Shown here in pieces: positions 8,938 through 19,625 of a stretch of 64,000 bases of DNA. The first letter of the stretch is position 1, and the number at the start of each line of letters is the position of its first letter. The notes beneath the pieces were generated by a model, which saw nothing but the letters and a program-made list of their open reading frames with translations, searched no databases and was not told the DNA's origin. The stretch comes from Streptomyces sp. SCSIO 30461 (GTDB lineage Bacteria > Actinomycetota > Actinomycetes > Streptomycetales > Streptomycetaceae): the NCBI RefSeq assembly GCF_037023745.1, contig NZ_CP146101.1, forward strand, positions 372,001-436,000. The letters run 5' to 3'. A program made the translations under genes and the position numbers.

Positions 8938-10362
8938 ATGTCTACTGCCCCGGTTCGCGTTCGTTTCGCCCCGTCCCCGACCGGCATGTTCCATGTCGGT
9001 GGTGCACGGTCCGCTCTCTACAACTGGGCTGTGGCGCGACAGTCCGGCGGCACGTTCGTCCTGCGGATCGAGGACACCGACGCGGCCCGGAACAAGCCGG
9101 AGTGGATCGACGGGATCATCAACGCGCTCGCGGCGATCGGCATCCACGGCGAGGACGCGGCCTTCGAGGGGCCGTACTTCCAGTCGCACAACGCCGACCG
9201 GCACCGGGAAGCGGCCCAGCACCTCTTCGCGGCCGGGCGGGCGTACTACTGCGACTGCACCCGGGAGCAGCTGAAGGAGCGCACGGGTTCGGATCACCTC
9301 GGGTACGACGGGTTCTGCCGGGAGCGGGGGCTGGCCTTCGAGGAAGGCCGGGCGCTGCGGTTCCGGACGCCGGACGAGGGCGAGACCGTCGTGGTCGACC
9401 TGGTCCGTGGGGAGCCGGCGTTTCCGAACAGCGCAATCGAGGACTTCGTGATCGCCCGTGGTGACGGGTCCCCGGTCTTCCTGATCGCCAACGTCGTCGA
9501 CGACCTGGACGAGGGCATCACGCAGGTCATCCGTGGCGAGGAGCACCTGTCGAACACGCCGAAGCAGCAGCTGCTGTGGGAGGCGCTCGGCGCGAAGCCG
9601 CCGGTGTGGGCGCACCTGCCGGTGATCGTGAACGAGAAGCGGCAGAAGCTGTCCAAGCGCCGTGACAAGGTCGCGCTGGAGGACTACCTCGCCGAGGGCT
9701 TCCTGCCCGAGGCGATGGTGAACTACCTCATGCTCCTGGGCTGGGGCCCGGGTGACGACCAGGAGATCCTCCCGTACGAGGAGCTGGAGCAGCTCTTCCG
9801 GATCGAGGACGTCAACACGGCGCCGGCCTTCTTCGACGTGAAGAAGCTGACGGCGTTCAACGGCGACTACATCCGCGCGCTGTCCCCGGAGCAGTTCGCC
9901 AACGCCTGCGCGCCGTGGCTCGTCGCCCCGTACGCGCCGTGGGCCCCGGAGGCGTTCGACAAGGACCTCTTCGAGGTGGCGGCCCCGCTGGCTCAGACCC
10001 GACTGGCGCTGCTGTCGGAGATCACCAGCTACGTGGACTTCCTGTTCCTCGACGAGCCGGTCGAGGACGAGGCGTCGTGGAACAAGGCGATGAAGGCGGG
10101 TGCTGGCGACATCCTGTCCGACGCCCGTGCCGAACTGGCCACCGTCGCGGACTGGAAGGCTGACGACCTGAAGGCCGTTCTGCTCGCCGTCGGCGAGAAG
10201 CACGGCCTCAAGCTGGGCAAGGCCCAGGCGCCCATCCGCGTCGCGGTCACCGGCCGGACGATCGGACTCCCGCTGTTCGAGTCCATGGAGCTGCTCGGAC
10301 GGGACCGTGTGCTGGCCCGTCTGGACGCGGCGGCCAAGAAGCTGGCCGCCGCGCAGGCGTAG
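8938..10362 (+). CDS. gltX: glutamyl-tRNA synthetase paralog
   Basis: A 474-residue class I synthetase. It has the HIGH-like signature in FAPSPTGMFHVGGARS, the KMSKS-like KLSKRRDKVALEDYL, the Cys motif YYCDCTREQ with a later YDGFC, and RIEDTD. The sequence differs from the housekeeping Streptomyces GluRS as I remember it, and the gene sits inside an integrated element, so a second copy is likely. It ends 7 bp from the stop of the convergent biosynthetic operon. Possible roles are self-resistance to a GluRS inhibitor or supply of Glu-tRNA to the pathway; neither is shown by the sequence. Start ATG 8938 was chosen over an in-frame upstream start because homology begins there. Confidence 0.92.
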   Translation: MSTAPVRVRFAPSPTGMFHVGGARSALYNWAVARQSGGTFVLRIEDTDAARNKPEWIDGIINALAAIGIHGEDAAFEGPYFQSHNADRHREAAQHLFAAGRAYYCDCTREQLKERTGSDHLGYDGFCRERGLAFEEGRALRFRTPDEGETVVVDLVRGEPAFPNSAIEDFVIARGDGSPVFLIANVVDDLDEGITQVIRGEEHLSNTPKQQLLWEALGAKPPVWAHLPVIVNEKRQKLSKRRDKVALEDYLAEGFLPEAMVNYLMLLGWGPGDDQEILPYEELEQLFRIEDVNTAPAFFDVKKLTAFNGDYIRALSPEQFANACAPWLVAPYAPWAPEAFDKDLFEVAAPLAQTRLALLSEITSYVDFLFLDEPVEDEASWNKAMKAGAGDILSDARAELATVADWKADDLKAVLLAVGEKHGLKLGKAQAPIRVAVTGRTIGLPLFESMELLGRDRVLARLDAAAKKLAAAQA

Positions 10363-10369
10363 CCGTCGG

Positions 10370-11356
10370 TCAGGCGACCTTCGTGAGAAGGTCGCCCCAG
10401 GCGTGGCCGAAGTAGTTCAGATCGAACCGGGCCAGGGCCTCGTACGCGGCCTTGGCCTCGGTCTGGCGCACGGCAGCGCGTTCACGGACCTGTGTTGGCA
10501 GGCGCCCGAGGTCCGGGGTCGGCTGGCTGGTCAGCGCGGCGAGGTCGCCCAGGCCGGCCACCGGGCGGATCAGGCAGGGCAGGCCGAGCAGCAGGGCCTC
10601 GGCCGCGCAGCGGCTCCAGCCCTCCCGCATCTGGGGGAGGAAGACGCCAACATCGCACGCGCACAGCAGCCGCAGGTACTGCTCACGGTCGACGTCGAAG
10701 TGGGCACCGTCGAAGCCGATGGTGTTGCTGCCGCTGGTGATCACCCGCAGCCCGGGCGCGTCGGCCAGGGCCGCCGAGACCTCCTCGGTGCCCTTCCAGT
10801 GCACAGCCTTGCCCGCGTACACCCCGATCACGTCCGGCGACAGACCGAACTCTGCGCGGCACTCGGTCCGGTCGAAGCCACGGGTCCGCTCGACCTCCGT
10901 CATGTCGAAGGCGTTGTAGATCACCCGGACGTTGCGGACGCCTCGGGCCTGAAGGAAGTCGGCCCAGTACGGGGCGACGCAGACCACGGCGGCGCACTGG
11001 GGCAGTACGCGGAACAGGTGCTCCCAGAGCATGGCCTCGACGGGAGCGGAGTCGTGCTGCAAGGGCTCGTAGTGGTGGAAGAGAAACACCGTGCGGGCCC
11101 GCATTTCCGGCGTGAAGAGCAGCAGGCTCAGGTCGTCCCACACGAAGGTGCCGCTGGTGCCGTCGAGTGCCCGGATGGTCGGGGACAGGCGGGCGAGGTG
11201 GCGGAGCTTGCGCCAGCGGCGGACGCGGTAGGTGCGCTTGAGGTCCGGGACCGTGCGCCACTCCACGTCGTCGGCCGTCGCCTCGTGGAGCATCCGCAGG
11301 TAGACCCGGCCGCCGGTCCGGCCGACCGGCTCCATCGAGTAGACGACCCGCTTCAC
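10370..11356 (-). CDS. glycosyltransferase family 4-like, last gene of the biosynthetic operon
   Basis: A 328-residue protein from GTG 11356, preceded by AGGAGG. It has a GT-B Rossmann C-terminal half: IGVYAGKAVHWKGTEEV, GLRVITSGSN, CDVGVFLPQMREGWSRCAAE and ALLLGLPCLIRP, with the acidic Glu where retaining GT4 enzymes bind the donor phosphate region. The N-terminal acceptor half is less recognisable (FLFHHYEPLQHD). The GTG overlaps the stop of the upstream HD gene, so translation is coupled. It should add a sugar to the pathway product; donor and acceptor are unknown. Confidence 0.8.
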   Translation of the reverse strand: MKRVVYSMEPVGRTGGRVYLRMLHEATADDVEWRTVPDLKRTYRVRRWRKLRHLARLSPTIRALDGTSGTFVWDDLSLLLFTPEMRARTVFLFHHYEPLQHDSAPVEAMLWEHLFRVLPQCAAVVCVAPYWADFLQARGVRNVRVIYNAFDMTEVERTRGFDRTECRAEFGLSPDVIGVYAGKAVHWKGTEEVSAALADAPGLRVITSGSNTIGFDGAHFDVDREQYLRLLCACDVGVFLPQMREGWSRCAAEALLLGLPCLIRPVAGLGDLAALTSQPTPDLGRLPTQVRERAAVRQTEAKAAYEALARFDLNYFGHAWGDLLTKVA

Positions 11357-19056: not shown

Positions 19057-19082
19057 CGTGTGGTGCCTCCTTCGAAGACGGG

Positions 19083-19625
19083 TTATCGCGGGAGTGGGCT
19101 TAAGGTGCTGGCGGTCGAAGAGCGGACCCCGCGGGTGAGCCGGCACCAGGCGCGGGTGCCGTGGGCGCCGGTCGTCAGCGACCAGGCGTCCGCCACGGCG
19201 CCGACGATGACCAGCCCCCGTCCCGATTCGGCCTCCTCCTCAGAAGCCGGGAGAGAGGCGGGTAGGGAGTGAGAGCAGCCGCCGTCGGTGACAGTGATCT
19301 CGACCTCCAGGCCGCCGGCGGTCGGACACCTGCGGTCGACGCACAGGACCAGGGGCGGGCTGCCCGAAGCGAACGCGTTAGTCGCGAGTTCCGACCCGAT
19401 GAGGCGGGCGTCGTCGAGGAGGTCCTCCTCGCTGCCGTGCAGTGCGACCGACACGGCTTCCCGGGCCACCTCGGCCGCCTTCGGCCCGTACGGCAGATCC
19501 GTGATCAGCGTGGTCGTGCCGTCGCGGTCGGTGTGCCCGTGTCCGGGGACGCAGGCCGGACGCCCGGTGCCGTGGTCAAGTGCACTGCCCAGGCGGCCTC
19601 GGGAGGTGCTCGTGTGGTGTCTCAA
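19083..19625 (-). CDS. HATPase_c ATP-binding protein, RsbW-like
   Basis: About 180 residues from TTG 19625, with GAGGTGG upstream; the start is uncertain. The Bergerat fold shows LIGSELATNAFASG (N box), EITVTDGGCS and GRGLVIVGAVADAW, typical of the many Streptomyces RsbW-like kinases. Codon 19103-19101 is TTA. It lies 26 nt upstream of the first glycosyltransferase and may be the first gene of the operon. It may bind an anti-anti-sigma factor or act as a small regulator. The divergent promoter region 19626-19797 separates it from the regulator gene. Confidence 0.75.
   Translation of the reverse strand: MRHHTSTSRGRLGSALDHGTGRPACVPGHGHTDRDGTTTLITDLPYGPKAAEVAREAVSVALHGSEEDLLDDARLIGSELATNAFASGSPPLVLCVDRRCPTAGGLEVEITVTDGGCSHSLPASLPASEEEAESGRGLVIVGAVADAWSLTTGAHGTRAWCRLTRGVRSSTASTLSPLPR

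Follow-up and report, generated by a model that had tools for sequence, protein, structure and literature searches.

A recurrent Streptomyces operon paired with a second glutamyl-tRNA synthetase, a proposed self-resistance copy

Introduction

The gene cluster for albomycin, a nucleoside inhibitor of an aminoacyl-tRNA synthetase (aaRS), reportedly includes a resistant second seryl-tRNA synthetase (SerRS), and it is this pairing of an inhibitor with a resistant aaRS copy that resembles the system proposed here. The locus in question lies in a 64,000-nucleotide stretch of the Streptomyces sp. SCSIO 30461 genome (the window), which covers 372-436 kb of one 8.05-Mb contig, and consists of an operon that faces the gene of a second glutamyl-tRNA synthetase (GluRS2). 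On comparative sequence evidence we think it rather probable that the operon makes a compound directed against glutamyl-tRNA synthetase (GluRS) and that GluRS2 is the self-resistance copy.

Two other clusters with an additional aaRS are described in the accessible portion of PMC12945691. The ascamycin (acm) cluster encodes AcmD, an additional alanyl-tRNA synthetase (AlaRS) that is more product-resistant than the canonical enzyme, and the SB-203208 (sbz) cluster, found by resistance-guided mining, encodes SbzA, an extra isoleucyl-tRNA synthetase (IleRS) that acts as a self-resistance protein. According to the accessible portion of a review of aaRS inhibitors (PMC7916415), bacteria that lack glutaminyl-tRNA synthetase (GlnRS) charge two tRNAs with GluRS, a dependence that makes GluRS an attractive target. 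In that portion, synthesised sulfamoyl adenylates are named as inhibiting GluRS and the enzyme is suggested for multi-target drugs of the future, and no natural GluRS inhibitor was found in the aaRS-inhibitor literature covered, this review included.

Results

GluRS2 and the neighbouring operon

GluRS2 is the most informative gene of the cluster. It is listed below with the operon genes, several of whose start codons were assigned by choice in this analysis; fractions of loci refer to the orthologous loci described in the next section.

8938..10362, plus strand: GluRS2, second glutamyl-tRNA synthetase, proposed self-resistance copy (TIGR00464, 429.8 bits, cutoff 290)
10370..11353, minus strand: GTb, GT4-like glycosyltransferase, accessory (weak PF20706/PF00534 matches, under cutoffs; 42/43 loci)
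11353..11967, minus strand: HD, HD_4 hydrolase of the SpoT/MESH1 type with the ED motif lost (PF13328, E 3.6e-13)
11973..13679, minus strand: CTase, O-carbamoyltransferase of the NodU/TobZ/GdmN type (PF02543 and PF16861; PDB relatives GdmN, NovN-type and TobZ)
13706..14503, minus strand: rSAM2, short radical S-adenosylmethionine (SAM) enzyme with extra C-terminal cysteines (PF04055, E 6.9e-10)
14520..15641, minus strand: nucleotidyltransferase (NTase)-like protein, model resembling the aminoglycoside adenylyltransferase AadA
15638..16747, minus strand: MoaA-like radical SAM enzyme, not canonical MoaA (TIGR02666, 170 bits against a cutoff of 284)
16751..17749, minus strand: hydroxyacid dehydrogenase (HADH)-like protein with a nicotinamide adenine dinucleotide (NAD) fold, catalytic Glu and His replaced by basic residues (PF02826, E 1.4e-40)
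17746..19056, minus strand: GTa, GT4 glycosyltransferase, accessory (PF00534, E 3.9e-20; 42/43 loci)
19083..~19595, minus strand: HATPase_c_2 regulator, exact start uncertain (PF13581; same place in 33/43 loci)

The preliminary description of this DNA had reported nine tightly spaced leftward genes and a convergent GluRS paralog, and all were found with the spacing claimed. Read in the direction of transcription the nine are HATPase, GTa, HADH-like, MoaA-like, NTase-like, rSAM2, CTase, HD and GTb; the largest gaps, 26 nt, separate HATPase from GTa and rSAM2 from CTase, the rest being 3-16 nt or overlaps of 1-4 nt. GTb and GluRS2 converge with their stops 7 bp apart. GluRS2 and the MoaA-like gene each have a counterpart elsewhere in the genome: one further full GluRS (GluRS1, C1:1916890, ~49% identical to GluRS2) and a gene above the MoaA cutoff (C1:5439895, TIGR02666 367 bits). 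The same description had taken this for an uncharacterised small-molecule operon without a recognised polyketide synthase, nonribosomal peptide synthetase or precursor of a ribosomally synthesised and post-translationally modified peptide. That view is upheld, and no description of the cluster was found among the matches listed from the open-licence literature, a scope that leaves out most subscription papers.

A recurring seven-gene core that includes GluRS2

A core of seven genes (HADH-like, MoaA-like radical SAM, NTase, rSAM2, O-carbamoyltransferase, HD and GluRS) recurs in Actinomycetota and at one clostridial locus. The MoaA-like alignment was scanned against 84,980 species genomes and the best 80 of 84 matches, giving 77 loci, were kept; of these, 43 counted as orthologous (>=71% identity), the clostridial locus (L046) was handled on its own, and the other 33, distant radical SAM loci, were set aside. 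The orthologous loci comprise 41 from Streptomyces, one from Planomonospora and one from Nonomuraea, and every one of them has all seven core genes. Each glycosyltransferase (GT) is present in 42 of the 43, both being missing from the Planomonospora locus (L034). As all eight biosynthetic genes and GluRS2 keep one order in 42/43 loci, the arrangement is more than chance. GluRS2 is convergent with the operon in 43/43, including L005, where it starts ~4.5 kb further away and only the end of the gene falls inside the locus record.

The flanks are more variable at their place: the NsdA-like gene is found there in 36/43 loci, the DAO gene in 36/43, HATPase in 33/43 and Mrr in 9/43, some contigs ending early. 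Thus the possibility raised earlier, that the genes are unrelated and differently distributed among strains, fails for the core and holds for flanking genes such as Mrr and NUDIX. Among the 295 Streptomyces genomes drawn, 13 have the MoaA-like gene, the source genome included. Viral contigs gave no match to the NTase or to the HADH::MoaA fusion described below, the plasmid collection gave only three ordinary moaA matches, and no dedicated tRNA-Glu or tRNA-Gln gene was found near the cluster in the 20 loci scanned of 44.

Fusion of operon genes in Clostridia

L046, from an uncultured Clostridium metagenome-assembled genome (MAG), carries the same seven functions with all genes in one direction: NTase, rSAM2 (a short frame), a CTase::HD_4 fusion, an HADH::MoaA-like fusion and its own second GluRS. 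Neither GT was found there. A protein search returned 18 clusters of HADH::MoaA fusions, and at least 14 CTase::HD_4 fusions were seen among the best 120 of 2513 matches. Five pairs of the two fusions have equal longest-contig figures, as does a Lachnospiraceae pair with an unfused CTase, which suggests linkage of both fusions. Genes that are fused in one phylum and are separate neighbours in another are strong evidence for one pathway. In addition, L046 encodes a further rSAM/SPASM enzyme and an MNIO/DUF692 protein (MbnB/TglH/ChrH-type), at 2053-3102 and 9289-10140.

GluRS2 is an apparently intact second copy

Two GluRS matches above the family cutoff were present in 14 of the 15 cluster genomes examined, the fifteenth (G584) having been read only in pieces. 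GluRS2 looks catalytically intact: it has the catalytic and anticodon-binding Pfam domains and, of 118 columns nearly universal in actinobacterial GluRS, it retains 117. A GluRS above the cutoff was found in 20 of 23 genomes from the clostridial order; G001, the genome with the whole fusion, has two and the other 19 have one each. Separately, in the order to which G591 belongs, some genomes gave two or three matches to GluRS (e.g., G699, G678 and G783).

The GluRS trees exclude L005 (locus edge) and L010 and L016 (broken frames). In the tree of 111 rows, built by a quick method, the actinobacterial GluRS2 proteins form one group (support 95) beside the Streptosporangiales housekeeping GluRS, not adjoining Streptomyces GluRS1, and the clostridial copy falls among clostridial GluRS proteins. 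With a 33-row subset, approximately unbiased (AU) tests rejected both the monophyly of all cluster GluRS (p-AU 4.7e-5) and the grouping of GluRS2 with Streptomyces GluRS1 (p-AU 0.0019). Cluster GluRS thus derives from housekeeping GluRS twice, independently, in two phyla.

Fifteen columns set cluster GluRS2 apart from Streptosporangiales GluRS. Five of them lie at 180-192, a stretch adjoining the motif that supplies the glutamate-binding Tyr and Asn of Thermus GluRS. Parallel substitutions in the two kinds of cluster GluRS came to one column only, in a variable stretch, and were not used.

The positions of these columns bear on a very unlikely alternative, namely that the operon modifies tRNA-Glu (a queuosine- or t6A-like hypermodification) and that GluRS2 is adapted to the modified tRNA. 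Radical SAM enzymes, the TsaD-related carbamoyltransferase fold and GTs occur in tRNA modification too, and no exporter was recognised among the proteins scanned. However, 12 of the 15 cluster-specific columns are at 1-314 and two in the anticodon-binding domain, the NTase model resembles AadA, both GTs are dispensable, and GluRS2 exists without the operon.

GluRS2 with and without the operon

The GluRS2-type gene was found in 18 of the 295 Streptomyces genomes, 13 with the operon and five without. All 13 operon genomes hold it (12 full-length; G007 has residues 1-294 only), and the co-occurrence is strong (Fisher 5e-19, ancestry uncorrected). For the five operon-free genomes the comparison covered the GluRS2-type gene and its 20-kb surroundings. 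These copies (L234-L238) have frames open over their full length and occupy five separate places inside the cluster clade (support 99); E192 is kept in four of them and D191 in four. Apart from a GTb remnant of 56 residues next to the L234 GluRS2, which is 99% identical to that of L030, their surroundings are free of operon genes. Weak HATPase- and NUDIX-domain matches were seen around L236 and L238.

GluRS2 therefore appears, from its occurrence in genomes, to be co-inherited with the pathway yet separable from it, as is expected of an immunity gene. The alternative that GluRS2 is biosynthetic, providing Glu-tRNA-Glu or glutamyl-adenylate for transfer onto the operon product, is in our judgment unlikely. 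It would account for the linkage to the operon in 43/43 loci and has a precedent in SbzA, the additional IleRS, which installs isoleucine as well (PMC12945691, accessible portion). Against it, profile scans recognised no aminoacyl-tRNA-dependent transferase family among the operon proteins, the housekeeping GluRS would already provide Glu-tRNA, recruitment occurred independently in two phyla, and five genomes carry GluRS2 without the operon. As GluRS2 is retained without the pathway, where a biosynthetic GluRS would have no partner, a role in immunity suits it better than one in biosynthesis.

Three operon enzymes lack family-typical residues

Residues were checked on 44 sequences. The HADH-like protein scores above the cutoffs of PF02826 and PF00389, so both the NAD-binding and the catalytic-domain fold are present. 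The catalytic triad of D-2-hydroxyacid dehydrogenases is Arg, Glu and His. The Arg is retained in 44/44 sequences, the Glu is replaced at 268 by K (34) or R (10), and the His is K287 in 44/44; three PDB relatives have both Glu and His. The GTP 3',8-cyclase MoaA is defined by a three-Cys C-terminal cluster and a C-terminal GG. In the MoaA-like protein the middle C-terminal Cys is replaced in all 44 sequences, by A in 43 and by G in one, and the GG is missing from the five aligned; judged by these residues and by the TIGR02666 score, it is not a GTP 3',8-cyclase. The catalytic motif of the SpoT/MESH1 (p)ppGpp hydrolases is ED. The HD protein, with MESH1 and Rel as PDB relatives, keeps the metal-binding H, HD and D in 44/44 and E81 in 43/44, and D82 is replaced in 44/44 by V (36) or I (8).

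The folds that had led to names such as 2-hydroxyacid dehydrogenase and SpoT-like hydrolase are thus confirmed, but the names of the HADH-like, MoaA-like and HD proteins do not give their reactions, because each lacks residues typical of its family in 44/44 sequences. The reactions of these enzymes probably differ from those of the parent families.

CTase has both Carbam_trans domains and HHxxH (the HxxxH motif) in 44/44 sequences. The NTase model has an AadA-like fold with an SDxD motif; the protein gave no Pfam match and no significant PDB sequence match. In rSAM2 the cysteines C22, C26, C29 and C192, C208, C211, C244, C247 are invariant (17 aligned). Its structural matches (SuiB, viperin, BlsE, PqqE, BtrN, SpeY and others) come from a poor model (predicted local distance difference test, pLDDT, 62), lie close together and were not used.

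The earlier expectation of a small, glycosylated, O-carbamoylated and possibly nucleoside- or sugar-derived product stands in part. A hydroxylated substrate resembling a sugar or cyclitol would suit both the AadA-like NTase and the O-carbamoyltransferase, but glycosylation is not core, neither GT having been found in L034 or L046.

The cluster in a putative mobile element

The features that bear on mobility, and the two genes divergent from the operon, are as follows.

6313..6380, no strand: tRNA-Ser 3'-end repeat, left element end (68-nt repeat family D3)
38973..39040, no strand: same tRNA-Ser repeat, right end, inside tRNA-Ser(GGA) 38971-39058
32723..34804, plus strand: tyrosine integrase (PF00589, E 5.4e-20)
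26251..27990, minus strand: relaxase, MobA/VirD2-like (PF03432, 37 bits, cutoff 24.6; MobB model NF041325 far below cutoff)
27987..28604, minus strand: NikA-like mobilisation protein, tentative (PF21983, 25.6 bits, cutoff 27)
19795..21276, plus strand: NsdA-family TPR regulator, divergent (NF053720, 232.8 bits, cutoff 75; same place in 36/43 loci)
21286..22242, plus strand: flavin adenine dinucleotide-dependent oxidoreductase of the DAO family, accessory (PF01266; 36/43 loci)

The cluster had been placed on a mobile element, and this is borne out by the tRNA-Ser repeats, the tyrosine integrase and the relaxase gene. By predicted gene content, all three hallmarks of an integrative mobilisable element (integrase, tRNA att repeats and relaxase) are accounted for. 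Genes for a DnaB-like helicase, Shedu/XhoI and Mrr also lie within 6313-39040, a third copy of the tRNA-Ser 3' end is in the window at 4210-4277, and more copies lie outside it at C1:368472 and C1:313518. Because of these repeated tRNA-Ser 3' ends, with the integrase and relaxase genes between, the cluster looks to sit in an integrative mobilisable element of ~32.7 kb at an apparent hotspot of tandem insertion.

Three observations concern neighbouring DNA. The 2.1-kb unit at 4210-6313, between two tRNA-Ser 3'-end repeats, has an HNH endonuclease gene (5155-6114) and is a possible tandem mini-element. At 6527-7900 a single protein joins an XhoI-like N-terminal domain to a Shedu (SduA) C-terminal domain, a restriction/defence fusion. 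Beside the cluster in L031, an open frame (5714-7213) has phage-integrase domains flanking a LacI-type helix-turn-helix match, an odd arrangement.

The element raises a further alternative, which we consider quite unlikely: intracellular chemical defence or element addiction, in which a molecule would halt translation upon phage infection or element loss and GluRS2 would protect carriers. The mobile setting with att repeats, the Shedu/XhoI and Mrr genes of the element, the position of Mrr next to GluRS2 in 9/43 loci and the failure to recognise an exporter are all consistent with such a role. However, Mrr was not seen adjoining GluRS2 in 34/43 loci (in L005 and L027 that place lies outside the sequence), and the NsdA- and HATPase-type neighbours suggest secondary-metabolism control. 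Moreover, PADLOC, run on the operon proteins other than HATPase, GluRS2 and the in-frame HD, gave only shared-domain matches, to the radical SAM stretch of pVip and the nucleotide-binding stretch of E1-E2.

Discussion

We favour the proposal that the operon makes a GluRS-directed compound and that GluRS2 protects its producer. The product would be small, hydroxylated and O-carbamoylated, and in most actinobacteria also glycosylated; carbamoylation is likely and glycosylation optional. The MoaA-like radical SAM enzyme with its HADH-like partner (fused to it in L046) and rSAM2 may build or rearrange the skeleton. NTase would adenylylate one hydroxyl and CTase carbamoylate another, HD may take off a phosphate, and the GTs would decorate the product. 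By inhibiting GluRS the molecule would block Glu-tRNA-Glu and, in cells without GlnRS, Glu-tRNA-Gln, and a GluRS2 that tolerates it would keep the producer translating.

We are evenly balanced on the fuller version of this proposal, in which a GluRS-targeting natural product, plausibly a glutamyl-AMP mimic of the adenylate type, is assembled without modular enzymes by MoaA-like, dehydrogenase-like, AadA-like and HD proteins that have been retooled. That the product is specifically the adenosine monophosphate (AMP) ester of a glutamate-like alcohol, or something similar that mimics glutamyl-adenylate, would best unite NTase with GluRS; this is a speculative and unlikely refinement.

Several observations weigh against a GluRS-directed compound with GluRS2 as its self-resistance copy. 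Only one clostridial locus, from a MAG, comes with DNA context; its fusion was matched in 0/390 other genomes of the class, and 286 other genomes of its order gave two matches, to the dehydrogenase part only. The clostridial GluRS is without any of the 180-192 changes, and therefore any resistance mechanism is not shared residue for residue. The clustering of changes in that stretch (permutation p 0.003-0.005 over all windows of that width) was assessed with a 13-residue width picked after the data had been seen. L238, the least similar of the five operon-free copies (70%), keeps only some of the cluster-specific residues. In L010 and L016 GluRS2 is broken, being split over different frames through either decay or an error in sequencing. 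The five operon-free copies could stem from separate transfer of GluRS2 instead of operon loss, although this also fits an immunity gene. Lastly, the operon and element proteins that were scanned, which took in part of the element frames, several of them without a Pfam match, include no recognised exporter.

If the proposal is correct, the locus is a lead, guided by resistance, both to an antibiotic scaffold and to GluRS as a target exploited in nature, with an assay pair available in the presumed sensitive GluRS1 and the presumed resistant GluRS2. Of further interest are those operon enzymes in which catalytic residues are replaced in all the examined sequences from two phyla. The operon's enzymes share folds and many motifs with the MoaA, D-2-hydroxyacid dehydrogenase, SpoT/MESH1, AadA and NodU/TobZ families, but relative to the first three of these families catalytic or ligand residues are replaced.

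Since clusters with aaRS copies are known and no match appeared among the papers listed, we place this cluster with the aaRS-protected kind, with a new predicted target and an unmatched enzyme set. Albomycin is said to differ in its siderophore part and in the synthetase duplicated, SerRS. As far as the accessible portion of PMC12945691 describes them, the acm and sbz clusters, like the present one, contain an additional aaRS copy. The acm copy is an AlaRS rather than a GluRS, and acm has a transferase, AcmF, whose counterpart was not recognised here. SbzA also installs the isoleucyl group of its product, whereas GluRS2 is found without any pathway in five genomes.

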